This document shows positions 4,027-51,889 of a DNA stretch of 64,000 nt, in pieces. This DNA comes from Candidatus Wallbacteria bacterium (lineage in GTDB: Bacteria > Muiribacteriota > JAQTZZ01), in NCBI GenBank assembly GCA_028687545.1, contig JAQTZZ010000001.1, positions 170,378 to 234,377 of the forward strand. Direction: 5' to 3'. A program made the translations under genes and the position numbers. The notes under the pieces are model-generated. The model searched no databases. It was not told the DNA's origin and was given only the letters and a program-made list of their open reading frames with translations. Each line of letters opens with the position of its first letter. Within the stretch, counting starts at the first letter, position 1.

Positions 4027-5778
4027 ATGAAGGAGCGATTCCTGGTTTTTTGCCTGGGCGTGATGTCCGCGTTCCTTCTGCTGGAATCTGCGATCAGAGT
4101 CTGTGCTCTGTTTCAGGAATCGATGCGTCCCGTTTCATTTCAGAAAAAATCCGGGGTGGTGATCCTGTGCGCCGGTGATTCATTCACATACGGTTATGGT
4201 CTTCCCGGGGGGCAGGACTATCCTTCACAACTCGAAGCGCTGCTCTCTTCGGGCGGAGACGGCTATCGGGTGCTGAATCTGGGACGGAATGGCGGAACAT
4301 CCTGGATGCTTGCAGATAAGATTGAGGGATACATTGATTCTTATGTGCCTGACCTTGCCATAATCATGATCGGAAGAGCCAACAGGAATCAGCTGGTCCA
4401 CCCTGGGGAAGGTTCATGGATAATCAAACTTTTTTCCCGTTCCAGAAGCCTGCAGTTTCTGCATCTGCTGTTCTCAGATATCCGGGAGAGAAAACCTGGC
4501 CTTCTGGCAGCGGTCAGGGCCGGATGGGACAGATTCAATTTTTTCAGTCTCAAATCGACCGGAAACCTTGAAGCGCCGGCTGCCTTTTCCGGACCTTCAG
4601 TTTGTTCGATCGATTTCCCACGATTTACTGGTGAAGTCTGGGAGCAGGCGAAAAAAAAAGATCTCTCAGCACTGGAAGCCAGGCTTTCGGAAAAGCCCTG
4701 GCCAGATACCGAGGAAATTTTAGCCTGCGGTGTATCCTATCTGCTGTCCGGTGACTTTGACAAGGCCTATGCTTTGTTCGACCGGGCAGCTGAAACCAGG
4801 GGGAAATACTATTTTTTCAGCGTTTATAGAGGAGTATGCAGGCTGCTCGAATTTAAGATCAATGCAGCAGCCGACCAGTTCCGGGAAGCTCTTGCCATGG
4901 AACCGGAGGACACTGGAGCCATGATCGGGTTCGGATGCACTTTGCTGCTGAAACAGCAGCGGGAAGAGGCACGTCTCTGGTTTGAAAGGGTCAGGAAGAT
5001 TGATCCTGGAAACGGCTGGGCATACAATTTTCTGGGCAGGTGCTGCCTGGACGCACGGGATCTTGAAAACGCCCGCAGCTTTTATCTGGAAGGCATCAGG
5101 AGAGAGCCTGAACTTACCATGAATTATACCGCTCTTGGAGAACTGTACAGCCATGAAAGAAAATTTGCCGAGGCTCAGCAGATACTTACCGAGGCTTTAC
5201 GCAGGGGGATTGTTCTGAACTGGGAAAAGAGCAGAGCCCTTCTTGTGCTGGGACTGTGTGAGTGCACACTCAATCCCCGGGAAGGTGCTGAAAAAGCCCG
5301 GGAGTTTTTAATGGAATCCATCCGCTGCGATCAAAAAAATCATGTGGCTCTCACTTATCTAATCAGTCTTGCCGGCGGGAAAGCGGAAGTTTTAGAGAGC
5401 ATGATCGATTCGTTTGAAAAATCCGGTCATGGCGATGCAGCTTTTTTTCTGCGCCATCAGGAAAATGCTCTTCCGCTGTCCGAAGTTGTCTGGAAGCAGC
5501 TGCGGGCAGATCTGGAGAAGATCGTCGAATCCTGCAGGAGTAAAGGCGTGAAATTGATTTTCATGAATTATCCGAATGAAGAGAATCCTGTTTTAAAGGA
5601 TGTCGCTTTGGAGCAGTCTGTTCCTTTCGTCGATCTGCTCGATGCCTTCAATAAATTGTGGGATACAGGAGAAAAAAGCTGGGATTATTTTCTGCCTGAC
5701 CTTCACTGCGGCGAACAGGGTAACCGCAAGATCGCGGAAGTGCTGAAACCGGTAGTGCTGGAAGTGCTGGCAAAATGA
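4027..5778 (+). CDS. Membrane-anchored SGNH hydrolase with internal TPR array
   Basis: This 583-residue protein has one N-terminal hydrophobic anchor (residues 5-28). A GDSL/SGNH block I follows (CAGDSFTYGYGLP, Ser52), then a TPR-type array near residues 230-440. The C-terminus carries the block V Asp-x-His pair (DLHCGEQGNRKIAEVL, Asp558 and His560). The TPRs are therefore inserted inside the hydrolase fold rather than added at an end. SGNH enzymes are esterases or acyl-transfer/deacetylation enzymes often acting on exported glycans; the substrate here cannot be told. The last four bases overlap the start of the next gene (ATGA), indicating translational coupling to the radical SAM protein. 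Confidence 0.75.
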   Translation: MKERFLVFCLGVMSAFLLLESAIRVCALFQESMRPVSFQKKSGVVILCAGDSFTYGYGLPGGQDYPSQLEALLSSGGDGYRVLNLGRNGGTSWMLADKIEGYIDSYVPDLAIIMIGRANRNQLVHPGEGSWIIKLFSRSRSLQFLHLLFSDIRERKPGLLAAVRAGWDRFNFFSLKSTGNLEAPAAFSGPSVCSIDFPRFTGEVWEQAKKKDLSALEARLSEKPWPDTEEILACGVSYLLSGDFDKAYALFDRAAETRGKYYFFSVYRGVCRLLEFKINAAADQFREALAMEPEDTGAMIGFGCTLLLKQQREEARLWFERVRKIDPGNGWAYNFLGRCCLDARDLENARSFYLEGIRREPELTMNYTALGELYSHERKFAEAQQILTEALRRGIVLNWEKSRALLVLGLCECTLNPREGAEKAREFLMESIRCDQKNHVALTYLISLAGGKAEVLESMIDSFEKSGHGDAAFFLRHQENALPLSEVVWKQLRADLEKIVESCRSKGVKLIFMNYPNEENPVLKDVALEQSVPFVDLLDAFNKLWDTGEKSWDYFLPDLHCGEQGNRKIAEVLKPVVLEVLAK

Positions 5779-6779
5779 GACCGGATTCTCCGGATTTTCT
5801 GTATGTTCACCGCTCGCTTGAACCCGAAGCCAGGCTTCGGGATTTCCTGCACGGGCTTGAATTTTATCAAGATGAAACAGAGCTTTTTCCGGGAGTTCCA
5901 CGAGCAGTATCCAGGAAGAATTCTTTTCTTAAGCCTTATGTTTACGGTACAGGAGTAATCGATCGCAGGCAGCATGTCCTGAGAATTTCCCAGGCCTGTC
6001 CTTGTGACTGTCTGTATTGTTACATCAAAGCCGTTTATCCAGACACCCCTCCCTATTTTTTTTACAATCTGAGTGATCTGTATCATGAAATCCATGAGCT
6101 GACAGCGATTGAACAGTCACCGTATCTGAACGCGGGTGAAAATGCTGATTCCTTCGCCTTTGACGGCCAATCCTGCCTGAGCCTGCTGCTTTCGCAGATT
6201 GCCATGGATTTTCCGCAGATCACCCTGGAATTGAGGACAAAGATACCTTCAAGGGTGAATCCTGGTTTCCTGAAGCAGAAAGCGCCGGCCAACATGCTGA
6301 TTGCAGTTTCCCTGAATCCTGAAGAAATCATCGGAGAATATGAATCAGGGACAGATCTGCTGGATTCCAGAATCAGTGGTTTGAAAGATATATCAAGAGC
6401 CGGTTACAGGATCGCAATCCGCCTTGACCCGATGGTCTATTCCGCTGATTTTGAGAAGAACTATGGAAAACTCCTGGAAAAATTGAAGGGAGAATTCAGT
6501 GCCGGCTGTTTCAGCAATATTCAGCTCGGCTGTCTGAGATTCACGAAAGAACAATCCAGATTGTTGCGAGCTACGGGATTCGGAGTTCGGGGTACAGGAC
6601 AATCTGCTATTGCAAGTGAACTGCTTGCCGAGGAGATGATCTTATCCACTGACGGGCATTGGCGGTATTTCGTCGAAATCCGGAAGAAAATGTATAAGTT
6701 CATGCTGGACGGATTGAAACATTTCGATTGCCCCAAAAGCCTCAGCAATGAAACGGCAAAATGTCAAAGCACGTTATAG
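5775..6779 (+). CDS. Spore photoproduct lyase-family radical SAM protein
   Basis: This 334-residue radical SAM protein carries a CxxxCxxC cluster, CPCDCLYC, with Cys75, Cys79 and Cys82 and an additional Cys77. The surrounding text (the LRISQACPCDCLYCYI stretch and the AIRLDPMVY segment near residue 215) is the pattern I associate with spore photoproduct lyase (SplB) and its non-spore relatives. These use a 4Fe-4S cluster and S-adenosylmethionine to make a 5'-deoxyadenosyl radical; the characterised member repairs the thymine dimer of spores. Nothing else here suggests sporulation, so the substrate is open. The start overlaps the SGNH gene by four bases. It converges on the minus-strand cluster, with a small hairpin between them. 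Confidence 0.7.
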   Translation: MRPDSPDFLYVHRSLEPEARLRDFLHGLEFYQDETELFPGVPRAVSRKNSFLKPYVYGTGVIDRRQHVLRISQACPCDCLYCYIKAVYPDTPPYFFYNLSDLYHEIHELTAIEQSPYLNAGENADSFAFDGQSCLSLLLSQIAMDFPQITLELRTKIPSRVNPGFLKQKAPANMLIAVSLNPEEIIGEYESGTDLLDSRISGLKDISRAGYRIAIRLDPMVYSADFEKNYGKLLEKLKGEFSAGCFSNIQLGCLRFTKEQSRLLRATGFGVRGTGQSAIASELLAEEMILSTDGHWRYFVEIRKKMYKFMLDGLKHFDCPKSLSNETAKCQSTL

Positions 6780-6797
6780 AGACGTGCCAGGTCTCTA
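6777..6797. terminator. Small hairpin between convergent genes
   Basis: A seven-base-pair perfect stem, TAGAGAC/GTCTCTA, with loop GTGCCAG sits at the junction of two convergent genes and contains the stop codon of the upstream radical SAM gene. The stem sequence matches the outer part of the long hairpin at 23341-23399, so it may be a shortened copy of the same dispersed repeat. No strong U-tract follows, so a terminator role is only plausible. Confidence 0.4.
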
Positions 6798-7925
6798 TGA
6801 TTCGATGATTTCTATATTCGCCCTCGGTACGACTCTAACCGATCCATCAGGATGCTCGACCTCAACCACACGGACCATTGTCTCAGATTCGAGCTTCATA
6901 AGGGTCACTGGCAGTGATTTTACTTTGACTACAGCCCCGAAATCAGGTTCGCGGATGATGCGGACGAGTTTTCCGGGTGTCAGTCCTACATCTTTCCTGA
7001 TTTCAGCTTCCTTGATTTTATCTTCTTCGATATTTTTCAGTGGGATGATGATTTCCGGTCTGATGACTCCGGCACGGATCTGAGTGGCTCCGTTAATTGA
7101 GGCCTGCTTTCCATTGTGCTTGGAAAGGAGGTCGTAAGTTTTCTTGGCCATGTTGATCTTTCCAAATCCCTCGGTCAGGATCATGGTCAGTCCCATTTCT
7201 TCGGAACCGGTGATGGCCACGCCAATGTCGTAACCCAGGAAATCCCTCAGATCTTTGGCGTCGATACCTCCTACAATGATGCCTTTTACCCCTGTGTCAA
7301 CTGCTTTTTTCAAGGCATCGGCTACTATGAACGAACCGCCCACTATGATCTTTCCCGCGTGTTCAGGAAGGATTTCACGCGCCACGATCTCGTCTTCCAA
7401 ACCCCTGGAGATCATTGAAATTTCTCCCACGACCTCGCCTCCGATGCCGAAAACACCTTGAACAAAGGCGGCCTGCAGCTTGATAGTTACACCTACATCC
7501 TTGTGGATTTCCTCCACGATTCCGTCGACATAGGCGTGGACTTCTACGGGTATTGGTGGTTCGCGCAGCACTACCTGTCCGGTGATACTGGAAATGTTTT
7601 CCACTGTGCCGGAGACCGGAGACTGACAGGATGATTTGAAATAGCCGAAAAAGCCCTTACTCTGGGCGAGCATCTGACCTTTGGAAATTATGTCGCCTTC
7701 ACGGGCCAGCATGCATGATCCAAGCTCTGCCGGAGTGATGGCCAGTTTATTCACAACATTGATCAGTTCCACATTGCCTGGCAGATTGGTGGCAGCCACA
7801 ACATCAGAAGCTTTGACCTTGTCGCCTATTTTGACTTTGATTTCACCCTTCAGAGGGAGAACACGCTCTTTATGGACAATCTGCCGCTCGCTGACTTTCA
7901 ATCCTGGTACATATGCCTGACCCAT
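6795..7925 (-). CDS. Barrel-sandwich (biotinyl/lipoyl-like) protein of the GlmL/DUF6754 cluster
   Basis: This 376-residue soluble protein has no signal peptide or membrane span. The N-terminal third is full of the glycine- and valine-rich turns of barrel-sandwich hybrid folds (VKIGDKVKASDVVA near residue 30, CMLAREGDIISKGQMLAQSKG near residues 70-90, SPVSGTVENISSITGQVV near residues 101-118). The order resembles the RnfC N-terminus, but no ESMK- or DKA-type lysine site and no Fe-S cysteines are obvious. The C-terminus has small beta modules with repeated Val-Lys-Val turns and ends in a HPDGSVRVVPRANIEII strand pair. It is the last gene of the minus-strand cluster, separated from glmL-like by an octamer-repeat hairpin. 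It could be a scaffold or cofactor carrier; function unknown. Confidence 0.55.
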   Translation of the reverse strand: MGQAYVPGLKVSERQIVHKERVLPLKGEIKVKIGDKVKASDVVAATNLPGNVELINVVNKLAITPAELGSCMLAREGDIISKGQMLAQSKGFFGYFKSSCQSPVSGTVENISSITGQVVLREPPIPVEVHAYVDGIVEEIHKDVGVTIKLQAAFVQGVFGIGGEVVGEISMISRGLEDEIVAREILPEHAGKIIVGGSFIVADALKKAVDTGVKGIIVGGIDAKDLRDFLGYDIGVAITGSEEMGLTMILTEGFGKINMAKKTYDLLSKHNGKQASINGATQIRAGVIRPEIIIPLKNIEEDKIKEAEIRKDVGLTPGKLVRIIREPDFGAVVKVKSLPVTLMKLESETMVRVVEVEHPDGSVRVVPRANIEIIES

Positions 7926-7967
7926 TTTTCCTCCTTGACGATATCAATTAATGACTTTCTTGTGCTT

Positions 7968-8063
7968 GGAAGTTTGTATGTTGGTATGTTTGTAAGTTAG
8001 TAGGTTCTCAGACAATCCTTTCCCAACATACCAACCTATAAACATGCAAACTTACCAACTTCC
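7968..8063. repeat. Octamer-repeat hairpin, copy 1
   Basis: Two arms of about 39 bases (7968-8006 and 8025-8063) are each made of imperfect eight-base units with consensus NGTTNGTA (for example TGTTGGTA, TGTTTGTA, AGTTAGTA). They are arranged head to head around an 18-base spacer. Both arms begin at their outer ends with GGAAGTT. Because the units repeat in register, the arms can pair in several alignments. The element lies between two genes of the same operon. Related arrays occur at 19898-19990, 35098-35136 and, as a short remnant, at 47142-47155. Confidence 0.75.
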
Positions 8064-8092
8064 TGCAGTTTTCATTCGATTTTCACCGTTGA

Positions 8093-9892
8093 CTAGTAGT
8101 TTGGATACGCATTCATGCTGCTCAACCAGCGCTGCATTTTTGCCACGCGTTCGCTCTTGTTTTCAGGAAGCTTGAATGGTCTGCGTCCTCTGGTATCGAA
8201 AATGATACCTACTACGCCTCCGTAAAGTGTATCTTCAATCGAAATCCCGGGACCTGCACCCAGGTCAAGATTTTTAGCCGGTTTTGCATAGAGTTTGGCA
8301 ACCTGCCCGACACCCAGAGGGTAAACCCTGATATCACCGAAAGTCAGTTCATCCTGAATCACCTTGCCGTCAGGCATGCTGATTTTGAATTCCAGGCATT
8401 TTTTACCGTCTTTTTCAGCACCGATGGGAGCAACGCAGGTGCCCAGATAGATCAGGCAGTCTTTTTCAAAGACCTGGGCAGCAGCTTCAGGATGGAAATT
8501 TGTCAGCACTCCCAGCTGAGGCATCATGAAAATAGAATCCACTGTGAGCTGTGTGACTCCTTCAGGCAGGAAGGCATCGATCATCATGATCGCAGCCTGG
8601 TGCCGCCGCGGAGAGTGGGACAGCACGCCGCCGCTGCCGATGATCATGTTCAGGGTAGTCATGTTGACCAGCGAGGAGTCGCTGGACTGGGAGAAGATGT
8701 CACTCATAGTGCGCTCTTTCTGAACACCTTTCAGGCTGACTGCCATTTCCTTGTGCTGAATCAGCGAAAGTCTCAGCGCCTCCCTGGCTACAGCCTGTTC
8801 GAAAATCAGTTCTTCCATGAGCTGCGGAATTGAGGTTGGCCTGATCATCTTGTTCTTGACCCGGTTCATCAGATCCTTCTCATTCATGTCGAACGGTATC
8901 CAGCGCATTACATTATCCAGTCCGGCTTCGGAAACTGTGTTGGAAATGCTGTAGCTCATGCCGAAGTTGGCTGAAACAGTGCGGTTGTATATTCCCTGAA
9001 AAACAGAAAAAACGTCTGTTGTCGCACCGCCAATGTCCACGCCGAGGATCTGTATCTTCTTCTCTCTGGCGATGCGCTGCATGATGGTGCCTACTGCGCC
9101 GGGTGTTGGTTCGATTTCATAATCAGTCATTGCCATCAGTTGCTTGTATCCAGGTGCCTGCTGCATTACATGCTCCAAAAACTGGTCATGGATCAGATGT
9201 CTGGCAGGCAGCAGATTTTCACGCTCCAACACCGGGCGGAGATTGTCTGTAACGGTCAGGGCGACTTTTTTACTGATCAGTTCCTTGACCAATTCGCGGG
9301 CATCCTTGTTCCCTGCATAGATTACCGGTAGCTGGAAGGTGATCCCGAATCTTGGTTTAGGGTCGGCTGCAGCAAGGATCTGGGCGATTTCCACCACGTG
9401 CTTAGTGGTGCCTCCGTCGATGCCTCCGGAAAACAGGATCATATCCGGCCGGAGTTTGCGGATGCGCTCAATCTTCTGATGGGGCAGCCTGCCGTCGTTG
9501 CTGGCAATGGTATCCATGACTATGGCGCCAGCGCCTAGTGCGGCGCGTGCAGCCGATTCAGCGCTCATGGCCTTGACTACGCCTGCCACCATCATCTGCA
9601 GTCCGCCTCCGGCGCTGCTGGTGGAAATATAAATATCGAATCCATCACTGCCCTTTTTGGGTTTCAACAAGGTGTCCCCGTCCGTGAACTTCCGCCCCAC
9701 GATTTCTTCCAGCTCGTTGATGGCGTTAAAAACACCCTTGGTGACGTCTTCTACAGGAGCTTCAACCGTTGTCGGAGCTTCACCTCTCGCGATCAGGCGG
9801 AATTCCTCGCCCTGCTGTTCGATCAGGATTGCTTTGGTGGTAGTGCTGCCACAGTCAGTGGCAACGATAGTCCTGATGTCCTCTTTTTTCAT
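8093..9892 (-). CDS. GlmL/MutL-family actin-fold ATPase
   Basis: This 599-residue protein has the two phosphate loops of the ASKHA (actin/Hsp70/sugar kinase) fold: ATDCGSTTTKAILIE at residues 10-24 and LGVDIGGATTDVFSVF near residue 310. It also has an FSGGIDGGTTKHV adenosine-type glycine loop near residue 155. This is the arrangement of GlmL (MutL), annotated as a glutamate-mutase accessory or reactivation protein. No glutamate mutase subunit (GlmS or GlmE) is nearby. Its neighbours are membrane proteins, including a DUF6754-like one. I infer it is the cytoplasmic ATPase of that membrane cluster rather than a B12-enzyme chaperone. AAGGAG lies six bases before the ATG. Confidence 0.8.
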   Translation of the reverse strand: MKKEDIRTIVATDCGSTTTKAILIEQQGEEFRLIARGEAPTTVEAPVEDVTKGVFNAINELEEIVGRKFTDGDTLLKPKKGSDGFDIYISTSSAGGGLQMMVAGVVKAMSAESAARAALGAGAIVMDTIASNDGRLPHQKIERIRKLRPDMILFSGGIDGGTTKHVVEIAQILAAADPKPRFGITFQLPVIYAGNKDARELVKELISKKVALTVTDNLRPVLERENLLPARHLIHDQFLEHVMQQAPGYKQLMAMTDYEIEPTPGAVGTIMQRIAREKKIQILGVDIGGATTDVFSVFQGIYNRTVSANFGMSYSISNTVSEAGLDNVMRWIPFDMNEKDLMNRVKNKMIRPTSIPQLMEELIFEQAVAREALRLSLIQHKEMAVSLKGVQKERTMSDIFSQSSDSSLVNMTTLNMIIGSGGVLSHSPRRHQAAIMMIDAFLPEGVTQLTVDSIFMMPQLGVLTNFHPEAAAQVFEKDCLIYLGTCVAPIGAEKDGKKCLEFKISMPDGKVIQDELTFGDIRVYPLGVGQVAKLYAKPAKNLDLGAGPGISIEDTLYGGVVGIIFDTRGRRPFKLPENKSERVAKMQRWLSSMNAYPNY

Positions 9893-9956
9893 AAAAACTC
9901 CTTAGGAGGATTTTTGGTAAAAAACAGATGAATTTTATCAGAAAACCAGTGGTTTT

Positions 9957-10250
9957 TCAAATTTTCTCCCCGGCTTCCCTTTTACGGGTGATGTCTTCCA
10001 GAGTCTGGATCAGCTGTTCGATGCTTTCCCGATCTTCCAGGATCTGCTGGAATCTCTTGTAATCCTTGATGTCCAGAAAAAGAGACACCAGCGGCTCCGC
10101 ACCCAGCATCATCTGGGAGCTGATGAAATTCAAGGGTTTCATTGATTCCAGGAAGAAAATCAGCGGGGCTTCCAGCCTCCTCCTGACAACTTTCCTGGCA
10201 TATTTTTCCAGAAGTTCATGGTCTTCAGCACTCAGAATGTGATTATCCAT
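9957..10250 (-). CDS. Small soluble protein of the DUF6754/GlmL cluster
   Basis: This 97-residue, mainly helical, charged protein (MDNHILSAEDHELLEKYARK at the start, ending in TLEDITRKREAGEKI) has no signal peptide, membrane span or known motif. Two segments look amphipathic and are separated by a more hydrophobic stretch, FLESMKPLNFISSQMMLGAEPLVSLFLDI, given here only by its position near residues 33-62. Its start lies three bases after the stop of the 137-residue gene upstream, so it depends on coupling within the operon. I do not recognise a family. Confidence 0.6.
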   Translation of the reverse strand: MDNHILSAEDHELLEKYARKVVRRRLEAPLIFFLESMKPLNFISSQMMLGAEPLVSLFLDIKDYKRFQQILEDRESIEQLIQTLEDITRKREAGEKI

Positions 10251-10253
10251 GCT

Positions 10254-10667
10254 TTATTTTTTCCCGTCCTGAACTGTACCCGTTTTCTGCCTGGCGAAAG
10301 CCAGAATTTCAATTTTCTTTTCCGCTTTGGAGGGCAGGAACAGGCCTCGAAAATTGTCCAGTCTGGAAGGTTTCGCGAACGGGCTCAGGAAAACTCCGTT
10401 CCTGCAGTCCAGGACACGCTGAAAATCGCTCCATTTGCGGGTTGAGGTTACTCCGAGGTGAGTGATTGTGATACCTGAATCTTCCATCAGGTATTCTGTG
10501 GGAAAGAAAAAGCCATGCAGAGACATAAAAAAAAGGAGGGCGGCCAGTGCCACCCATCCAATATTCTCACCAATCAGGAATAACCCGGCAAGGAAGGCCA
10601 GGATGATCAGCAGAATCGTAGCCAGTCTTTTCCTGTCCTCAACCAGCGGGTGTACTCTCCAATTCAT
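10254..10667 (-). CDS. Small membrane protein with two transmembrane segments, possible PH-like domain
   Basis: This 137-residue protein starts with a basic N-terminus (MNWRVHPLVEDRKRL). Two adjacent hydrophobic helices follow (residues 17-33 and 38-53), then a mostly beta-strand cytoplasmic part with SGITITHLGVTSTRKWSDFQ near residues 63-82. A double helix hairpin followed by a beta domain with a conserved W-S-D-F turn is the layout of bacterial PH-like (bPH) membrane proteins; this is my inference from shape. The gene sits one base downstream of the preceding stop codon in the same operon. Confidence 0.6.
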   Translation of the reverse strand: MNWRVHPLVEDRKRLATILLIILAFLAGLFLIGENIGWVALAALLFFMSLHGFFFPTEYLMEDSGITITHLGVTSTRKWSDFQRVLDCRNGVFLSPFAKPSRLDNFRGLFLPSKAEKKIEILAFARQKTGTVQDGKK

Positions 10668-10668
10668 G

Positions 10669-11304
10669 TCAGGAAATCACATGCAGCCATCGCTCCATCA
10701 GGAACTGCATTCGGCCGATCAGAAGCGAGATACGGGCCATCACTGTGTTCCCGAATGATCCTCCCAGCATGATCATCAGAAAGCAGATACCTACAAAAGA
10801 CACGTTTTTATAGATGCCTTTGTGCTCCACTGAAAAGAAGAAATAAAAGAGCGATGTGAGCACTCCGGCAATCAGGATCAGATTCTGGAGGTTGGTGATA
10901 AAATCACCGCCCATGATCGGTTTCAGGGTATCGTAAATCTGAGCCATGATATCTGTCTGGACTGAAGCGGTGATGGCGAGTCCGGATCCAAGACCGACAA
11001 TGTATGCCATCGGCCAGCGCGAAAGCCAGGCAAAATCCTTGTTCAGCCTGGCTACCATCATTAACCCCAGAATGCCTGGAATCAGATACCACCAGTTGTG
11101 TTCCGCTAGTTTGTCCACAAGATTGGGTTTCACCTGATTGAAATATGTGATGGTCAGGAGATAGCCGTTAGCCACACCGATGAAAATATATTCAGCCAGC
11201 CGGTATACGATGTTGTCCTTATAGAGGAAGCTGAAGATAGCTAGCGTGAGCAGGGCTCCGATCCAGACTCCGGCGGTTTCGTTATAGAAAATTCCATGTT
11301 CCAT
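10669..11304 (-). CDS. Polytopic membrane protein of the DUF6754/GlmL cluster
   Basis: This 211-residue protein has about six hydrophobic segments (for example VWIGALLTLAIFSFLY near residue 11 and LILIAGVLTSLFYFFFSV near residue 140). A short hydrophilic loop YDTLKPIMGGDFITNLQN precedes the fourth or fifth helix. No transporter signature is visible. An AGGGGG ribosome site overlaps the stop of the upstream gene, and the start codon follows it after a few bases. It probably forms part of a membrane complex with the neighbouring genes. No family recognised. Confidence 0.65.
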   Translation of the reverse strand: MEHGIFYNETAGVWIGALLTLAIFSFLYKDNIVYRLAEYIFIGVANGYLLTITYFNQVKPNLVDKLAEHNWWYLIPGILGLMMVARLNKDFAWLSRWPMAYIVGLGSGLAITASVQTDIMAQIYDTLKPIMGGDFITNLQNLILIAGVLTSLFYFFFSVEHKGIYKNVSFVGICFLMIMLGGSFGNTVMARISLLIGRMQFLMERWLHVIS

Positions 11305-11312
11305 GTTGCCCC

Positions 11313-12134
11313 CTATTTCTTTCCGTATTTTTCGGTCAGGTAAATGACATTGCCAAGGATGATGAATCCGATGATCACCAGATGCGACATGGACTGGGCG
11401 TCCATTCCCCTGATTCCCTTGCCTGGTGCTCCGACCATTTTTTCATATTCAGCTGCCCCTGCCAGTCCGTTGATCAGACCCTTGAACTGACCTGAGCTGT
11501 AATACGGATAGAATTCTGTGGCTGAGACTGCGGTGCAGCCAGTGATCACATCAACGTGGTATTTTGTGCCGCCATACGCAACCCAGACAACTCCTCCGGA
11601 AGAACCTGCAGACAGGGAGATGACCAAACCGAAGGAGGAATAGTTCTTGACGTCCTGCAGAATCGGAAGTTCCCTGATATCGGTTCCAGCCTGGTCCTTA
11701 GGAAAGGCAATCGTGAAATCAGAACCGATGGAGTTTACGACCACTAAACCGCCGGCCTTGTACCCAACATTCACATAATCAGTTCCATATGTGAGTGTTG
11801 GATAATCCTTCTTGATTTCGCCGAAGGCTTTATTCATTTCAGCCGGGCCCTGAGGCCAGAGGCCGGTCATCACAACCCTCAGCTTTTTCTGGAAGCAGTG
11901 GCGCAGTATGGCTATATTCATCGGAAACAATTCAGCTTCGCTGCCAGGGTCATAGTCAGCTGAAAAAAGCACTCTTGATCCGGGAGGGAGGTTGTCCACT
12001 GCCTGGAATGCCCTTCTGGTCTCTTCTGTGATTACGATCGGCAGGCCGATCGGATTGAGCATCGGAATGATCACAGAGAGAGCTACACAGAGATAAATGA
12101 TTCTTTTATCCAGATTTTTTATTTTTTCCCACAT
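11313..12134 (-). CDS. Membrane-anchored protein with DUF6754-like partner domain
   Basis: I place the start at ATG 12134, which follows GGAGGTGGAG at correct spacing and lies one base after the upstream stop; a longer frame to 12218 has no ribosome site. The 273-residue product has an N-terminal transmembrane helix (IIYLCVALSVIIPMLNPI), a globular alpha/beta domain of about 200 residues and a C-terminal helix (LVIIGFIILGNVIYLT). The globular part includes PPGSRVLFSADYDPGSEAEL near residue 47, a LRVVMTGLWPQGP strand, and GCTAVSATEFYPYYSSGQFKG near residues 200-220. With both ends membrane-embedded, this domain is probably held close to the membrane. Function unknown. Confidence 0.65.
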   Translation of the reverse strand: MWEKIKNLDKRIIYLCVALSVIIPMLNPIGLPIVITEETRRAFQAVDNLPPGSRVLFSADYDPGSEAELFPMNIAILRHCFQKKLRVVMTGLWPQGPAEMNKAFGEIKKDYPTLTYGTDYVNVGYKAGGLVVVNSIGSDFTIAFPKDQAGTDIRELPILQDVKNYSSFGLVISLSAGSSGGVVWVAYGGTKYHVDVITGCTAVSATEFYPYYSSGQFKGLINGLAGAAEYEKMVGAPGKGIRGMDAQSMSHLVIIGFIILGNVIYLTEKYGKK

Positions 12135-12135
12135 G

Positions 12136-12759
12136 TTAGTCTCCACCTCCCAGATATGCTCTTTCCAGTCCGAAAATAATCTTGATCGACATGGAGACTG
12201 CACCGATGGCGACTCCAATTGTGATCGCCCTCATAGCGCCTGTGGCGAAGTAATTCATGATCCAGGACTGGACTGTCGGGAACTGGTCCCAGATCGCTGA
12301 TCCGATCGGCACACGTCCCAGCATCACGAAAAATCCGGCGATCATCATCAGCGTGGCTTCCTTGGTCTTGATGCGGAAAGCCCTGAAAGAAGCGGAAGAT
12401 ACATAGAAGGCCAGCAGGGAGAACATGGTGGCCTGCAGCGGATTATAAATGAAATTGTAGACAAAACTGAAGTTCGTCGTGCCGTCCATATCTGCCTTGT
12501 CCAGAAAACCCACGATCGAGGTGAAAAAGAAGAAAAAGATCAGAACGACCGACAAGCCCCAGTTTTTTCCCTGGCGGTAGACATTGGAAGAATGCACCAT
12601 CAGGAGATTCAAGATGGCTACGAGCAGAGCGAAGGCCGCAATGACCAGGTATCCGCGCTGGCCTGCGTCGCTGATATCTGAAAGAGCTGGGGCAAAGAAC
12701 GCGATGACGAAAAATATCCCGGTGCAAAAGGTAATCAGCAATGGTATGTTTCTTTTCAT
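12136..12759 (-). CDS. Polytopic membrane protein of the DUF6754/GlmL cluster
   Basis: This 207-residue protein has about six transmembrane helices, beginning with a signal-anchor-like helix (MKRNIPLLITFCTGIFFVIA). A very hydrophobic helix VVLIFFFFFTSIVGFL lies near residue 72. It ends in a short cytoplasmic tail, LERAYLGGGD. The purine-rich codons of that tail also form the ribosome site of the next gene, so the two are coupled. It has no recognised transporter motif. It starts nine bases after the DUF6754-like gene. Confidence 0.65.
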   Translation of the reverse strand: MKRNIPLLITFCTGIFFVIAFFAPALSDISDAGQRGYLVIAAFALLVAILNLLMVHSSNVYRQGKNWGLSVVLIFFFFFTSIVGFLDKADMDGTTNFSFVYNFIYNPLQATMFSLLAFYVSSASFRAFRIKTKEATLMMIAGFFVMLGRVPIGSAIWDQFPTVQSWIMNYFATGAMRAITIGVAIGAVSMSIKIIFGLERAYLGGGD

Positions 12760-12768
12760 CAGGCCTCC

Positions 12769-13938
12769 TTAATTTTTGACCTGGAACAGGTCCTTGAAAA
12801 AATCGAACCATGGGGTGCCGGTAAATTTAGCGATAGAAGTCATGATCACTCCGATGACGATCGAGATCATGACTATCAGTTTCCCTGCGTCCTGACCTTT
12901 GAGGCTGCCGAGTTGCATCGGTTCTCTGGAGAAGTAGGCGGAGGCTGCGTATAACTCTTCTCCTATGATCGTATAGTCGCAGGCTGCGACGAAAAAGGGC
13001 AGCTGGGATGGCATTGTGGTTCCGGCAATCTGAATGGCCTTGATCGAGTTTCCGGTCTCTGCCAGAACAAGCGATTCGGCGTAGAAGGTTCCCAGGTAAA
13101 AAATAGTGGCCGGTTTTTCACGTATCATTTTGCCGCAGACTCCGGCTGCATAGCTGAACTGGTCATTAGCTATATAACGGACACAATCTTCTTTATAGGT
13201 ATCCGGACGCCCTACCTTTAGGTGGGCTTCCTTGATCACTTCCTTGGCTGTGGAGAAGACGATGGGTCCGGCGACAGGGACTGTGATTTCAGTATCATAT
13301 TCCGCGGTTTTCTTGGCAATATGCCCCAGAATCGAGATGGCTGCAATCGTAGGAAGGTCGTCCATGTCGTAAATGCCAGGCACGAACATCACCTCGCGTC
13401 CCATTTCAGTGGCGCGACCCACTGCCTCATCAATGGCCGAGAGACCGGCGATCGGCCGAACATAGAGATCCTGGCCCTTCAAGGCTGAAGTGATGTAGAA
13501 ACCAACAAAACCGGCGATTACCAGCAGGGCTACCAGGAGATTGCCTAGTTCCGGGTTGAACATGCGGTGTTTTTTCTGATAGTCATTCGTGAAGTCGGCT
13601 GACAGCTGGGTGACGATTTCGGCTTCAACTGAGCCTTTCTGAAGATAGGTCTTGATCTGTCCCTCGATCTGTTCGAGATTCCAGTCTTTTACTCCGTTGC
13701 TTTCCAGGGACTTGATCACAAGATTCTTGACTTTGTCGATGGCGAACTGAGTGACTGGAGCCGCGGCTGCTGGAGCATTCACCGCCGCTTCCACTGGGGC
13801 AGCAGTTGAAGTTTCGACAGATGCCGCAGTTGTAATGGCGGCTTCCTGTGTGGCTGCGGCCGGAGGCGCTTCCTCAGCCAGAAGCATGCACCCTGTGAAG
13901 AAGATCATCATCAACAGTAGCAGCTTTTCCTTTTTCAT
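12769..13938 (-). CDS. DUF6754-like membrane protein, first gene of cluster
   Basis: This 389-residue protein has a signal sequence (LLLLMMIFFTGCMLLAEEA, with a possible lipobox FTGC) and an Ala/Pro/Thr-rich linker to about residue 65. A charged helical region and a transmembrane helix near residue 140 (LLVALLVIAGFVGFYI) follow. Next is a domain of about 200 residues beginning RPIAGLSAIDEAVGRATEMG, and finally a second membrane helix (GKLIVMISIVIGVIMTS). The RPI-x-A-x-EAVGRA-EMGR opening and the later GTFYAESLVLAE segment are what I associate with DUF6754. The protein family has no assigned function that I know. AAGGAG precedes the ATG at eight bases. It leads the eight-gene cluster. Confidence 0.7.
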   Translation of the reverse strand: MKKEKLLLLMMIFFTGCMLLAEEAPPAAATQEAAITTAASVETSTAAPVEAAVNAPAAAAPVTQFAIDKVKNLVIKSLESNGVKDWNLEQIEGQIKTYLQKGSVEAEIVTQLSADFTNDYQKKHRMFNPELGNLLVALLVIAGFVGFYITSALKGQDLYVRPIAGLSAIDEAVGRATEMGREVMFVPGIYDMDDLPTIAAISILGHIAKKTAEYDTEITVPVAGPIVFSTAKEVIKEAHLKVGRPDTYKEDCVRYIANDQFSYAAGVCGKMIREKPATIFYLGTFYAESLVLAETGNSIKAIQIAGTTMPSQLPFFVAACDYTIIGEELYAASAYFSREPMQLGSLKGQDAGKLIVMISIVIGVIMTSIAKFTGTPWFDFFKDLFQVKN

Positions 13939-14153: not shown

Positions 14154-14522
14154 TCACTGACCGAGCTGGATCGCGGCATCCTGGGCAAAGACCCTGATAT
14201 TGTTTTTCATGATGTTCACTGAATAAACGACAGCCGTGCCACTTTCACTGACCATCACAGACGCATTGACCGAAGTGTCCCCTGTGAGTTGAATTTCTGC
14301 CGGTTTACCCTTCAGACAGACAATTTTTGGGGAGGCGTAAGTTTCGTTTGTATAAATGTCTTTGATGGTCAGAGCGCAGAAGTAGTTGCCTGATTTGTAA
14401 GGTTGGATTTCCCATCTCACACTGTACTGATTATCCGAATAATTTTTTCCGATCGCTCCACTCAGCAGGCAGACCGAGAACAGCATGATCAAGATGCTGG
14501 AGAAGAGAAATGATTTTTTCAT
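14154..14522 (-). CDS. Small secreted protein of unknown function
   Basis: The start is ATG 14522, which follows GGGAGGAACT directly; an upstream ATG at 14549 lacks a ribosome site. The 122-residue product has a typical signal peptide (MKKSFLFSSILIMLFSVCLLSGA). It is followed by a compact beta-rich domain with SVRWEIQPYKSGNYFCALTI near residue 36 and ASVMVSESGTAVVYSVNIMK near residue 87. The alternating pattern suggests a small immunoglobulin-like or beta-sandwich fold. No catalytic residues can be proposed. It lies upstream of, and in the same direction as, the DUF6754 cluster, but is separated from it by 215 bases. Confidence 0.6.
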   Translation of the reverse strand: MKKSFLFSSILIMLFSVCLLSGAIGKNYSDNQYSVRWEIQPYKSGNYFCALTIKDIYTNETYASPKIVCLKGKPAEIQLTGDTSVNASVMVSESGTAVVYSVNIMKNNIRVFAQDAAIQLGQ

Positions 14523-14838
14523 AGTTCCTCCCAATAGTATTTGTTTCATACTCTTTCGACTGGATCAGAAAAAAGGTGAGACGGAAGTAGTAACAGATTT
14601 GCGGAAATTGGTTACTGATTCTTATTGAGCTTTTACCTGGCCAAAGAAGCATTGAAAACTGCGAAATCGGCCAGTAGAATGGAATTCGTTGGACAGTTAA
14701 AGATCATCGGAGACTGTTGTCAGCCTGAGGGCGACAGCACGAAGGATGATTACAGCGTCAGATCCCCAAAGTGGGATTATTGATTGCAGATCAATAAGTG
14801 GACTCAACACTCAAACCGTTTTGGAGTAAAATGTTTTC
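14523..14838. other. Intergenic region between divergent genes
   Basis: These 316 bases separate the minus-strand secreted protein gene from the plus-strand membrane spermidine-synthase-like gene. I see no gene here. Around 14713-14755 there is a segment reading GCCTGAGGGCGACAGCACG that resembles a repeat widely dispersed in environmental genomes. The plus-strand gene has only a distant GGAG ahead of its ATG, so its exact control is unclear. Confidence 0.4.
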
Positions 14839-17130
14839 ATGAACGATCTGAAATACAGCCTCATCCATTCTTTGATCCCATCCCAGGCCGCATTCGTGTC
14901 CGGCATGACAGGCATCATCTGTCAGATCTTACTTCTGAGGGAACTCCTGGTGCTTTTTTCAGGGAATGAATTCGCCATCGGCTTTATCCTGGGCTCCTGG
15001 GTACTATGGGAAGCGGCCGGATCTTTGCTGGCAGGGAATCTTCTTGACAAGGTGGACGGAAGAAAAGCCTATTCTGTCTGCAATCTTCTTTTCCTGATCA
15101 GCTTTTTTGTAAACATTATGCTGATCAGAGATTTCAAGGTGCTGACAGGGACCGGAATGGGGGTGATCGAAAGCCTGACAGCTTCAGTGCTGCTGCTATT
15201 TCCGTCCGGGATCTCTCACGGAGCCCTTCTGGTGTTGGCAATCCGCTTGTTCGATGGAACAGGAGCAGCCGGATCCGGATTCGGCAGAGCATATTTTTTT
15301 GAAACCATGGGAACGATTGCCGGTGGAATTCTGGGCTCCTATTTTCTGCTTCCCGGAGTCATGAGTTTCTCAATCGCAGCAGTCTGCCTCTGCGCAGGTA
15401 TCTTGTCCACTCTTCCGCTGCTCAAAGGGCGGACATTTTTCCTGGCCTTGCTGGTTCTTCTAGTACTCTCGATTTTCTCAGGGCCGGGTTTACAGAAACT
15501 GAATCAATTTACCCTCAGCAGGCAGTGGAAAAAAGAACCTGCTTACTATGGCAACAGTTTTTATCAGAACATCGCAGTAATCAAAGAAGAAGAGCAGTAT
15601 ACGTTTTTTACGGATGGAATCCCCAGGCTGACCCTGCCGCCTGCAGAAATAGAGGCAATGGAAGATTTCGTGCACTTTCCCATGCTGTCACAGGACAACC
15701 CTGAAGCAGTGCTTGTGCTTGGCAATGGAATAGGAGGAGTTTTACGGGAAGTGGAAAAATATTCCTCTGTCAGGAGGATAGACTGCCTGGAGCCTGACCC
15801 GACTTTTCTCGCGACTGTCTGTGATTTTTCGCGAAGGGCAGGCCTTTCCGAACTTGCCGATCCCAGAGTCACCGTGTTTCCTGAGGACGGCCGCTTTTTT
15901 GTGCAGCACAGCCTGAACGGAAAATCCGCGGCTTTTCCGGACAGGAGATACGACGTTATTCTGATGGGAATTCCAGCGCCTGACACGCTGCAGTCAAACC
16001 GTTTCTTCACTGCGGAATTTTTCGGAAACGCCGGACAATTGCTCGGAGACGGGGGGGTTTTTGTTTGCTCGCTCCCCGGTTCCCTGGCATATTACGGGCC
16101 TGAGCTCAGAAAATTAAATGCAGTGGTGCTGCATGCGCTGGAGCGGTCCTTCAGGCAGGTGGTTGTGCTTCCTGGTTATCAGAATCTCTTCCTGTGTTTT
16201 AATGCTTCCGTGGTTTTTCCGACTCCGGAGGGGCTGGCAGAAAGGCTTTCCGGATCCGGTATTTCCACGCTGGCGTTCAACAGGTATTCAATAGCTTCCC
16301 GGATGAGGAATGAATACCGGGACTGGTTTTACTCGGCCATGGCCGATCCTGCCGGATACAACAGCGACCGGAAGCCCATTGCGGTGTTTTATGATCTGGC
16401 CTATCGCAGCCAGATTTACGATTACAGGCTGAGCTGGATTTTCGGGGTACTTTCGCAGCCGGGATGGGCGATTGCACTGTTTCTGGCTGCTTGTCTGATC
16501 TCTGGCCTGACCGGAAAGATAAAACCCGCTGTGGCTTTCAGCCTTGGCAGCACAGGCTTTTCAGGGATGCTTTTTCAGCTTCTGCTTCTGTTCGGGTTCC
16601 AGGCGGCCTGGGGTGTCGTTTTTTACGAAACAGGGCTCTTCACTGCCTGCCTGATGGGAGGGATCGCCCTGGGTACATTCCTGACCAGCCGTTCGCTGGA
16701 GCGTGACTCAGGGAAGGGGTTTTTCGGATTTTCTGATCGACAGGCTCTCCTGGGGCTGGAGATCATTTTCTTCGTTTTTTTTCTTAGCCAGTCCCTTGTC
16801 TTCGGATTCATTGACCCTTTCTTGAGCGGTTCCGTGTCAATACACTGCTTCTTTCTGCTGCCCCTCTTTTTCACCGGAGTAATCATGGGCATGGAATTTC
16901 TCCTCTGCAATCGGATCTGCCTGAAGTCATCTCAGGCCGGTCAGGGGAGGGCAGCCGGCCTGATTTTTGCTTCAGACCTTTTCGGTGGTTTCCTGGGCGG
17001 AGTCATGAGCGGTTTTTTTATCCAGGCAGCTCTTGGCTGGCCTGCCATCTGTCTGATGCTGGCTGCCCTGAAGCTGGTCAGCCTGTATTGGCTGACTGTG
17101 GCATTTCAAAAAAAAATATTTGAGATATAA
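14839..17130 (+). CDS. Polytopic membrane protein with spermidine synthase-like domain
   Basis: This 763-residue protein starts with about six transmembrane helices (residues 14-215). A cytoplasmic Rossmann methyltransferase-type domain (about 225-520) resembles spermidine synthase. It closes with about seven further helices (530-760). The nucleotide-binding loop is VLVLGNGIGGVLREVEKYSS near residue 295, followed by the acidic strand end DCLEPDPTF. A second conserved strand YDVILMGIPAPDT is near residue 370; in true SpeE the corresponding position is usually D-L-I-I-x-D-x-x-D-P, so the polyamine-site aspartates look altered (LMGIPAP). This agrees with a membrane relative rather than a working spermidine synthase. 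The substrate is unknown. Confidence 0.75.
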   Translation: MNDLKYSLIHSLIPSQAAFVSGMTGIICQILLLRELLVLFSGNEFAIGFILGSWVLWEAAGSLLAGNLLDKVDGRKAYSVCNLLFLISFFVNIMLIRDFKVLTGTGMGVIESLTASVLLLFPSGISHGALLVLAIRLFDGTGAAGSGFGRAYFFETMGTIAGGILGSYFLLPGVMSFSIAAVCLCAGILSTLPLLKGRTFFLALLVLLVLSIFSGPGLQKLNQFTLSRQWKKEPAYYGNSFYQNIAVIKEEEQYTFFTDGIPRLTLPPAEIEAMEDFVHFPMLSQDNPEAVLVLGNGIGGVLREVEKYSSVRRIDCLEPDPTFLATVCDFSRRAGLSELADPRVTVFPEDGRFFVQHSLNGKSAAFPDRRYDVILMGIPAPDTLQSNRFFTAEFFGNAGQLLGDGGVFVCSLPGSLAYYGPELRKLNAVVLHALERSFRQVVVLPGYQNLFLCFNASVVFPTPEGLAERLSGSGISTLAFNRYSIASRMRNEYRDWFYSAMADPAGYNSDRKPIAVFYDLAYRSQIYDYRLSWIFGVLSQPGWAIALFLAACLISGLTGKIKPAVAFSLGSTGFSGMLFQLLLLFGFQAAWGVVFYETGLFTACLMGGIALGTFLTSRSLERDSGKGFFGFSDRQALLGLEIIFFVFFLSQSLVFGFIDPFLSGSVSIHCFFLLPLFFTGVIMGMEFLLCNRICLKSSQAGQGRAAGLIFASDLFGGFLGGVMSGFFIQAALGWPAICLMLAALKLVSLYWLTVAFQKKIFEI

Positions 17131-17162
17131 TAAGAAAAAAATACCTCTTTTAAGGTGTGAAG

Positions 17163-18308
17163 ATGAGACTCGCCTTTTTCTTTATTTTAATCAACGCAGT
17201 TTTTGATTTACCAGGTGGAATTCCGCTGGCCTGGGCTGAATCTGGTTTTAAGGCCGAACATCTGAATCACGTCACAGTCGAGGCGTCTGCACCGGGATAC
17301 AAGGAAGCGCTTTATTACTCGATGCTTGACACCAAAGAGCGGACCGTCCAGTGCAGGCTCTGCCCTAAAAAATGCACGGTCGCCGAGGGAGCCCAGGGTT
17401 TCTGCAGGGCCAGGGAGAACAGGGACGGCAAGCTTTATTCGCTTGGTTATGGCTTTCCCTGCGCAGTGCATGTCGACCCGATTGAAAAGAAGCCATTTTT
17501 CCAGGTGATGCCAAAGACGCTCTCGTTTTCGCTGGCTGCTGCCGGCTGTAATTTTCGCTGCCAGAACTGCCAGAACTGGCAGATCTCACAGATTTCTCCA
17601 AAAGAATCCCAGAATCTGAAACTGTCTCCTGAGGAAATAATCAAGCTTGCCGGAGAAAAAGAATGCCGCAGCGTGGCTTTCACCTACACCGAACCCATGA
17701 TCTTTTATGAATACATGCTGGATATCTGCAGGCTGGCGAAAAAGGCGGGTCTGCATACAGTCTGCCACAGCAACGGCTCCATCAACCCCGAACCGCTGCG
17801 GGAACTGTGCCCTGTTCTGGATGCGGCCAATATAGACCTGAAGGGCTTCAACCGGGATTTTTATCGCAATAACTGCGGCGGGGAACTGGATGATGTGCTC
17901 TCCACGCTCTTAGTACTGCACGAGCAGAAGGTCTGGATCGAGATCACCAATCTGGTGATACCGGGCATGAACGACGACCTGGAGCTGATCCGGAAAATGT
18001 GCGAATGGATCAGGGATAATCTCGGCACAGATGTGCCGCTGCATTTTTCCAGGTTTTATCCCTGCTATCGGCTGACCTCAATGACACCGACACCGGTGAG
18101 CACGCTCACTAAAGCCCGCGGGATAGCGAAAAAGGCCGGGCTGAAATTCGTCTATATCGGCAATGTACCGGGAAACGAAGCGGAAAATACAATCTGTCCC
18201 AAATGTGGGAAAATACTGATCAAGCGGGCCGGATACGAGATCCTGGAAATGAACATCGAGGAGGGAAAATGCAAATACTGCAAGGAAAAAATTCCTGGCA
18301 TCTGGTAA
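17163..18308 (+). CDS. AmmeMemoRadiSam system radical SAM enzyme, with export signal
   Basis: The start is ATG 17163, with AAGGTG six bases upstream; a GTG at 17157 would add two residues. The 381-residue protein belongs to the radical SAM family paired with AMMECR1 and Memo proteins. Its cluster cysteines are GCNFRCQNC (Cys129, Cys133, Cys136). An upstream Cys set (CRLCPKKC, then GFC) lies at residues 64-81, and there is a C-terminal CPKCGK and CKYCKEK zinc-ribbon-like pair. Unusually, the N-terminus is a hydrophobic signal-like segment (MRLAFFFILINAVFDLPGG, then LAWAESG). A radical SAM enzyme outside the cytoplasm would be remarkable; the segment could instead be an uncleaved anchor. It overlaps the next gene by 40 bases. 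Confidence 0.85.
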   Translation: MRLAFFFILINAVFDLPGGIPLAWAESGFKAEHLNHVTVEASAPGYKEALYYSMLDTKERTVQCRLCPKKCTVAEGAQGFCRARENRDGKLYSLGYGFPCAVHVDPIEKKPFFQVMPKTLSFSLAAAGCNFRCQNCQNWQISQISPKESQNLKLSPEEIIKLAGEKECRSVAFTYTEPMIFYEYMLDICRLAKKAGLHTVCHSNGSINPEPLRELCPVLDAANIDLKGFNRDFYRNNCGGELDDVLSTLLVLHEQKVWIEITNLVIPGMNDDLELIRKMCEWIRDNLGTDVPLHFSRFYPCYRLTSMTPTPVSTLTKARGIAKKAGLKFVYIGNVPGNEAENTICPKCGKILIKRAGYEILEMNIEEGKCKYCKEKIPGIW

Positions 18309-48468: not shown

Positions 48469-49589
48469 TTGGACACCCCCTGTCCGGCGAAGAAGAAATC
48501 CTTCATTTCCATGAATTCGTTCATTTTCAGCCTCAGGTCGTCTGTGACAGCCCTGGAGGAGATTGTGGCAGCAGTGATCGCGTCTACTTTGCCGTCAGGG
48601 TTGTCTCTGTTCAAAAATAAATCCGGGAGGGAGAGACCTTTAAACTGCTCCTGAAACCAGGGCTTCTGATAATCCATGGCCAGGTTATTGTATTTCCCGG
48701 AGATTTTATGGCAGATCAGCGGATTGATTTCATTGATCCTGGAACCAAGACCTGGAGTTTCGCTGTGTGAGAGTATCTTAAGGCCAAGTACTGTGCCGTT
48801 GATGCTGAAGGCTGCCAGAAAACCGATCCTGCCCCCATAACCTTTCGGGTTGCAGCTGGTTACCACACCCAGTGCGCGAGCCCCGAGTTTTCCCACAAAG
48901 AAGGTGCTGGTGTCAGGGCTTTGCAGGTTTTTCTTGTCAGTCCTGCAATCAGTAAACAGCACTTCCTGCGACAGACCTTCAAAGTTCCTTCCCTGATAAT
49001 CCAGGAATTCAACTCTCCTGTCTTTGGAATAAATGAAGTGGACAGGAAGTTTCTCGTCCAGGGTTTCCAGCACATTGGCAGTATTCAGCAGGTAAAAATT
49101 TCTGATGAACCAGGTTTTATTTTTATCTGCCTTGTCGGTCACCGGAATCCTGACCACCACGAACCTGTCAAAAGTCAGATTTTTCTGGAGAGCGGACTTG
49201 ATCAGGGTCAGCAGGTAATTTACATTTTCTTTGGGGTCCCCGGCCGGGAGTTTGCGCTCGTCGTTCACCCGGCGCAGCAATTCAGCGCCTTCAGCTTCCG
49301 GAACCTGGTATTTGTCAGGAACGCTGGTGTCGATGTCCCCTTTGATCACGTGATCAGCGACTGTATAGCTGACTGATCCGCCGCTTTCCCTGTGAACAGA
49401 GTATTTTCCGTCAGGAATGTCGATCAGATCGATACTGCCTGAGAGCAGCAGTTCGCGCCGCGAGTCGTCTTCTGCAGCAGCCAGTCTGGCAGAAATCACC
49501 GGAGCTGTAAGATTGTTCACATAGCAGAGGGTTCCGGCCGAGGCAACGCAGAACAGTGTCAGGATCAATGTGATTCTGATCACAATCAT
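48465..49589 (-). CDS. rnfG: Rnf electron-transport complex subunit G, unusually long
   Basis: This 374-residue membrane-anchored flavoprotein has an N-terminal helix (RITLILTLFCVASAGTLCYV) and a C-terminal FMN_bind domain with KILSHSETPGLGSRIN. The flavin attachment motif DAITAATISSRAV contains the threonine that binds FMN. Typical RnfG is about 200-250 residues; here about 120 extra residues lie between the anchor and the FMN domain (SVHRESGGSVSYTVADHVI to YSKDRRVEFLDYQG), similar in size to NqrC. It overlaps rnfD by four bases. Confidence 0.85.
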   Translation of the reverse strand: MIVIRITLILTLFCVASAGTLCYVNNLTAPVISARLAAAEDDSRRELLLSGSIDLIDIPDGKYSVHRESGGSVSYTVADHVIKGDIDTSVPDKYQVPEAEGAELLRRVNDERKLPAGDPKENVNYLLTLIKSALQKNLTFDRFVVVRIPVTDKADKNKTWFIRNFYLLNTANVLETLDEKLPVHFIYSKDRRVEFLDYQGRNFEGLSQEVLFTDCRTDKKNLQSPDTSTFFVGKLGARALGVVTSCNPKGYGGRIGFLAAFSINGTVLGLKILSHSETPGLGSRINEINPLICHKISGKYNNLAMDYQKPWFQEQFKGLSLPDLFLNRDNPDGKVDAITAATISSRAVTDDLRLKMNEFMEMKDFFFAGQGVSK

Positions 49590-51883: not shown

Positions 51884-51889
51884 TGGCAT

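Follow-up and report, generated by a model that had tools for sequence, protein, structure and literature searches.

An eight-gene unit with a GlmL/MutL-type ATPase and a DUF6754 membrane protein, recurring across mostly uncultured bacterial phyla: possibly an ATP-driven envelope machine

The described systems closest to the locus considered here are the GlmL/MutL family (PF13941, with the curated models NF040745, NF040744, and TIGR01319), of which GlmL is annotated as a mutase accessory, the hydantoinase/oxoprolinase A and BadF-type activators, which fall in the same class of actin-fold ATPases, the membrane-bound, multi-gene Rnf/Nqr complexes, and DUF6754 (PF20539), a family described as a domain of unknown function. 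Each has some likeness to a part of one gene set in a stretch of 64,000 nucleotides (the window, by which we mean this whole stretch) from Candidatus Wallbacteria bacterium (assembly GCA_028687545.1, contig JAQTZZ010000001.1, positions 170,378 to 234,377). The set consists of eight genes (g1-g8, 6795-13938), which open reading frame (ORF) calls place on the minus strand at the coordinates claimed beforehand, and which encode a clear DUF6754 member (g1), four further membrane proteins (g2-g5), a small soluble protein (g6), a GlmL/MutL-type ATPase (g7), and a protein with a barrel-sandwich domain (g8). The eight genes are firmly established here as one real, conserved, and recurring unit, beyond chance, and the unit is spread over genomes named for many, mostly uncultured, bacterial phyla. 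No like system was found in Pfam, NCBIfam, or PADLOC, or in the open-licence portion of the PMC literature, in which no paper found names DUF6754; the first-pass annotation, which could match no described system to the set, was right within these sources. A defence role was considered and dropped, the PADLOC anti-phage models giving nothing beyond two weak matches (14 and 15.4 bits, E 0.0033 each). The function of the unit, unlike its existence, we infer from sequence. The parts are as follows, fractions referring to the 79 loci introduced below.

12769..13938, minus strand: g1, DUF6754 protein, 389 amino acids (PF20539, 384 bits; AlphaFold2 model; charge bias)
12136..12759, minus strand: g2, polytopic membrane protein, 207 amino acids (ORF; family in 74/79 loci; hydropathy)
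11313..12134 (ATG at 12134), minus strand: g3, 273 amino acids, two membrane helices and an alpha/beta domain (AlphaFold2; charge)
10669..11304, minus strand: g4, polytopic membrane protein, 211 amino acids (ORF; family in 69/79 loci)
10254..10667, minus strand: g5, 137 amino acids, two membrane helices and a soluble tail (ORF, hydropathy; 11/79 loci)
9957..10250, minus strand: g6, small soluble protein, 97 amino acids (ORF; 19/79 loci)
8093..9892, minus strand: g7, GlmL/MutL-type actin-fold ATPase, 599 amino acids (PF13941, 417 bits, residues 9-479)
7955..8080, no strand assigned: dispersed palindromic repeat in the g7-g8 gap, not a part of the machine (52 genome matches)
6795..7925, minus strand: g8, 376 amino acids, barrel-sandwich part, middle domain, and a C-terminal end that we take to be KOW-like (RnfC_N and NQRA_N near cut-off)

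As to recurrence, an alignment of the window's g1 with 23 relatives was searched against a collection of named genomes, and the 79 loci studied come from the best 80 kept of at least 573 stretches encoding g1 relatives (at least 586 matched); taxon names are those of the record titles, and some bins look mislabelled. A phmmer scan of these loci recognized g1 in 79, g2 in 74, g3 in 70-71, g4 in 69, g5 in 11, g6 in 19, g7 in 32, and g8 in 32. The first-pass annotation had asked whether the DUF6754, GlmL-type, and barrel-sandwich genes recur together in a fixed order, and they do recur together, with g2, g3, and g4 following g1 in order and on the same strand for 83 of the 88 g1 genes that have at least 3.2 kb left downstream (the misses are L016, L030, L061, L073, and the first cassette of L046, a locus that the phmmer scan lists as in order), while the placement of g7 and g8 varies: g7 stands before g1 in 15 loci (and, fused, in L054), after g1 in six, and on mixed strands in 10, and four loci have g8 with g7 absent from the locus. 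Genes so rearranged and yet kept near the cassette are what a working unit looks like. Within the window's phylum, g7 shares the strand of g1 and lies 2.9-3.8 kb downstream of it in 23 of the 24 genomes with both on one contig, and g8 comes within 300 bases after g7 in 26 of 27 genomes.

Presence and absence tell the same story. In a sample of 39 genomes of the phylum, in which the clade of g7 was defined by at least 400 bits (other GlmL proteins reach at most 151), g1, g7, and g8 are each found in 29, all three together in 28, and none of them in nine, so that they agree in 37 genomes, the exceptions being one genome with g1 only (G021) and one with g7 and g8 only (G006); Fisher's exact test gives 4.6e-7, a value not corrected for kinship. 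The as yet unnamed unit is present in 15 of the 16 good genomes of the phylum. A further link, between the ATPase and the barrel-sandwich protein, is backed by proteins in which the two are fused: in L054 (Neomarinimicrobiota by title) g7 and g8 form a single protein of 870 residues, which was left out of the g8 profile, and a second, distant type of fusion is encoded in L153 (967 amino acids) and in L149 (993 amino acids), the genome of L153 carrying on the same contig a g1-g4 cassette with a g1 of 950 residues.

In the window itself the genes, from g1 to g8, are separated by 9, 1, 8, 1, 3, 64, and 167 bases, as read from the sequence. The tight packing of eight minus-strand genes and the repeat insertion had thus been described correctly, but the overlaps had not, as the ATG start chosen for g3 leaves none, and of the two larger gaps the one of 64 bases between g6 and g7 had been missed. 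The repeat in the 167-base gap between g7 and g8 has 52 matches genome-wide, its own copy counted, and it is probably a late insertion, since the matches to g7 and g8 are only 14-53 bases apart in 23 of the 26 relatives with both on one contig.

The identity of g7 is clear at the family level. It passes the cut-off of the MutL family PF13941 (417.3 vs 27 bits), covers the whole profile, and carries the motifs ATDCGSTTTK, VDIGGATTD, and GSGGVLSH, largely conserved in 30 sequences, which we take to be the two phosphate loops and the adenosine loop of actin-fold (ASKHA) ATPases. By these motifs g7 is an actin-fold ATPase, as already annotated from its complete phosphate loops, with ATP hydrolysis as its putative activity; 263 of its positions are kept in at least 90% of the 30 sequences. 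It differs from described GlmL proteins in a C-terminal extra stretch of some 120 residues beyond the MutL-type length, in its linkage and fusion to g8, and in falling under the cut-offs of NF040745 (GlmL, methylaspartate mutase accessory protein; 229.7 vs 475), TIGR01319 (GlmL family protein; 174 vs 204), and NF040744 (a third GlmL model; 220.3 vs 600). The mutase subunit reported missing near g7 is missing more widely: a search of the window's whole genome (G000, 97% complete) for the glutamate mutase E subunit PF06368 was empty, other B12 mutases lying outside this search. The genome has a second, ordinary GlmL gene, of 441 amino acids, on another contig (L200:9661-10986), and on inspection by eye of the ORFs in the surrounding 12 kb no mutase stood out. 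To the hydantoinase/oxoprolinase A proteins g7 is related by class, its Hydantoinase_A match (24.7 vs 22.9 bits) spanning 48 residues only, and neither a hydantoinase B nor a dehydratase was found among the eight proteins and five flanking ones scanned.

Among the membrane proteins, g1 passes the DUF6754 cut-off of 27 bits, and its family is large, with at least 7,999 proteins matching. It reads, from the N-terminus, as a signal-like helix, an extracytoplasmic stretch, a membrane helix (129-153), an alpha/beta domain (about 163-338), and a second membrane helix (340-373); the identity and the two membrane helices had been annotated before, and the signal-like helix comes on top of them. In the AlphaFold2 model (predicted local distance difference test, pLDDT, 87.2; predicted template modelling score, pTM, 0.73) the alpha/beta domain is predicted to lie on the cytosolic side. 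With this model Foldseek gave no strong match (best E 1.6e-3 among the matches listed). The outer part of g1 is variable, being FN3-like in some relatives and different in others, and in one of them (L152) about 690 residues precede the domain. The second alpha/beta domain, that of g3 (residues 37-234), stands between two membrane helices whose outer flanks are both positively charged, and it is predicted by its model (pLDDT 96.2, pTM 0.91) to be extracytoplasmic; g3 matches 2,088 proteins and zero Pfam families, and Foldseek again gave no strong match (best E 2.7e-4, TM 0.28, among the matches listed). Its conserved residues are mildly enriched at the C-ends of strands (12 vs 7 expected, p 0.016). 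Hydropathy gives g2 five segments, and a sixth, near 107-125, was judged by eye, so that g2 likely has about six membrane helices with both termini inside; one of its relatives (L031:14716-16491) carries, within what is predicted to be an outer loop, an insertion of five FG-GAP_3 repeat stretches. Both g2 and g4 are polytopic and carry conserved charged residues. The soluble tail of g5 is presumably PH-like, and g6 often immediately precedes g7. The earlier description of g6 as a small soluble protein and of g2-g5 as four further membrane proteins is borne out by ORFs, hydropathy, and models. None of g2-g6 has a family over cut-off in Pfam or NCBIfam, and hhalign detected no homology between g1 and g3 (5.8%) or between g2 and g4 (0.2%).

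What does such a unit do? The reading that we prefer, tentatively and at somewhat short of an even chance, is that of an ATP-driven machine of the envelope, at the inner membrane, in which one cytosolic g7 with a docking g8 powers one to several g1-g4 modules. In such a machine g7 would open and close with ATP, g8 would link g7 to g1, g2, and g4 at their cytosolic faces, and a substrate chosen by the outer domains, which vary far more, would be moved or processed by the stroke. Copy numbers are one part of the argument. A genome search covered 50 of the loci (49 genomes), the other 29 including 28 that hold g7 in the locus and one (L042) with g8 only. The 49 genomes contain 164 DUF6754 matches, one to seven per genome and two or more in 40 of them, vs 40 matches to g7 of at least 900 bits, spread over 38 genomes; eight more genomes have a g7 match above 500 bits, and three have weaker pieces, found at contig starts (G045), beside a run of N (G060), or, as a piece of 31 residues, at the start of a contig on which g6 and g5 lie further in (G063). 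With many DUF6754 copies and mostly one g7, the membrane modules, one to several in number, are probably served by a single engine. In a quick tree of 115 g1 domains (SH-aLRT supports), the copies of three-copy loci group by position, the third copies all in one clade (12 of 12, support 100), the second mostly in another (10 of 12, support 99), and the first in yet another (10 of 12, support 89). Tandem g1-g4 cassettes are therefore old paralogues that have been retained next to one another.

Another part of the argument is conservation, assessed in alignments of diverse subsets (59 rows for g1, 78 for g3, 30 for g2, 29 for g4, 16 for g8, and 8 for g7). In g1, 47 columns are invariant, all of them at residue 155 or later, that is, in the cytosolic part and the next helix, vs only nine in g3; together with the conservation of g7, this suggests a strict cytosolic side and a loose outer side, as expected if a shared engine docks inside while clients differ outside. 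A cytosolic active site would give the same pattern. As to the partner of the engine, g8, of which at least 7,999 proteins are matches, had been proposed to be a carrier or a docking part. Across its 16 aligned sequences no lysine is kept invariantly or almost so, which makes a carrier with covalently attached lipoyl or biotin improbable; docking, the half of the proposal that remains, fits better.

A number of observations weigh against this machine. Neither g7 nor g8 is found within the fetched flank in 43 of the 79 loci, so engine and modules would often be apart on the chromosome. Two genomes (G056 and G082) have two g7 of at least 900 bits, several have a second, distant type of g7, and DUF6754 is single-copy in 25 of the 29 genomes of the phylum that have it, the window's own genome, with one DUF6754 gene and one g7, included. 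The conserved residues of the g1 domain, expected beforehand to cluster at the C-ends of strands, the ligand edge of the sheet, number 25 there vs 22.8 expected; this gives that expectation no support and indicates no pocket. Profile searches with g2, g3, g4, g7, g8, and the g1 domain gave no credible solved relative, the sole solved likeness being FN3, in relatives of g1. Genes next to the unit differ by lineage and name no substrate. Finally, we know of no precedent for membrane transport by the ATPase class of g7. Should the machine be real, one engine with several cassettes would resemble one motor serving several gearboxes, the list of engines that work on membranes would gain an actin-fold ATPase, and the large DUF6754 family would become a defined complex open to expression and testing. 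Bolder, and in our estimate doubtful, is the claim of a new class of ATP-driven envelope machines in many uncultured phyla, built of a single actin-fold ATPase, a barrel-sandwich clutch, and interchangeable four-protein cassettes, each with an outer client of its own.

The main rival, which we place next after the ATP-driven machine and regard as possible though on balance unlikely, starts from the annotation of GlmL as a mutase accessory and makes g7 a reactivase or activator, spending ATP on reloading or repairing a membrane-bound enzyme formed by g1-g4, with one activator for several paralogous enzymes; the two Rossmann-like domains of g1-g4 would then bind nucleotide cofactors. Pfam and NCBIfam gave g1-g4 no match to an enzyme family, however, and no neighbour is common to all lineages, while the fold matches are middling and a common fold proves no function. 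The domain of g3, moreover, is predicted outside the membrane, where nucleotide cofactors are rare. Less probable still is a signalling or scaffold complex that moves no substrate, g7 acting as an ATP-dependent membrane recruiter, in the way of FtsA or PilM, and g1-g4 as an envelope sensor. The variable outer parts of g1 would suit a sensor, and so would the bactofilin, SLBB, and Wzz genes (one each) and the ExbB-like genes (13 of the 79 loci) that lie nearby in some lineages, but two polytopic proteins with conserved charges exceed the needs of a sensor, and these neighbours vary.

The Rnf/Nqr complexes are brought in by g8. It scores just under the cut-off of RnfC_N (25.1 vs 25.6 bits, or 28.7 with the frame neighbours added) and slightly under that of NQRA_N (22.8 bits), and the g8 of one genome (G054) exceeds the former (27.7 bits). 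The unit could on this basis be a redox-driven ion pump, a distant relative of Rnf/Nqr in which g8 would be the input subunit, in the manner of RnfC or NqrA, and two polytopic proteins are at hand, and it shares with these complexes a membrane-bound, multi-gene make-up. Against this, hhalign with six RnfC proteins (probability 52.5, 79 columns) aligned only the N-terminal barrel-sandwich part of g8 and found no likeness beyond it, and the unit has an ATPase instead, which a redox pump would leave without a role. The C-terminal end of g8, taken to be KOW-like, has weak matches to NusG and SPT5 (E 0.043 and 0.26), and two of the 120 relatives listed are called NusG in the source. At 49586-51889, furthermore, the window encodes a true RnfC (130.6 bits to RnfC_N), followed by a gene that we take to be RnfD-like, and a separate Rnf complex is therefore likely in this genome. 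We reject membership of the unit in Rnf/Nqr beyond one shared domain, and consider even a distant relationship by way of a redox pump very improbable. Most improbable of the readings weighed is that g7 serves a B12-dependent mutase and adjoins a separate unit of membrane genes by accident. The GlmL annotation and the many genomes in which g7 is unlinked to g1 would favor such a helper, but the three missed GlmL cut-offs and the empty PF06368 search, which together led us to reject a glutamate mutase link (other B12 mutases lie outside that search), stand against it, as do the tracking of g1 by g7 in presence and absence and the g7-g8 fusions.

The neighbours themselves were collected from 118 loci (216 same-strand proteins in 136 clusters), among which there is no universal ninth gene or common partner. 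The most frequent one, encoding glycine dehydrogenase P, precedes g5 or g6 in 10 loci (five of the 79 and five fetched later), directly so in L144, L007, and L028 (Fermentibacteria and WOR-3), and two of these genes were checked by Pfam. A protein of 249-273 residues and of no known family follows g7 in seven loci. The count of loci with ExbB-like genes in the fetched flanks was made without a control set, and Pfam confirmed ExbB, ExbD, and TonB in L007 only. Among a chosen handful of other neighbours, Pfam confirmed, at a single locus each, the Wzz, SLBB, and bactofilin genes and one PlsX-type gene; in L144, a PlsX-type gene and then a presumably fabH-like gene come after g7. Around the unit in the window, a gene just upstream of g1, and like it on the minus strand, encodes a small protein with a signal-like start (14154-14549) and with a sub-threshold family match only, and further away (14839-18308) are a gene for a spermine-synthase domain protein and then a radical-SAM gene. 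On the other side, a spore photoproduct lyase family protein (5775-6779; 40.1 vs 27 bits) is encoded convergently with g8, beyond which (4027-5778) is a protein of 583 residues with a GDSL-lipase domain and tetratricopeptide repeats.

Some observations concern the records themselves. A locus titled 'Methylomirabilis' (L060) groups with Riflebacteria in the tree and has like neighbours, and one titled 'Armatimonadetes' (L065) sits among Cloacimonadota. Some 'chromosome' records of metagenome-assembled genomes (L201, L202, L203, and L014) contain 100-base runs of N; in L014 g7 is in two pieces on opposite strands, and in G050 it is in two pieces at distant places, beside or near such runs.

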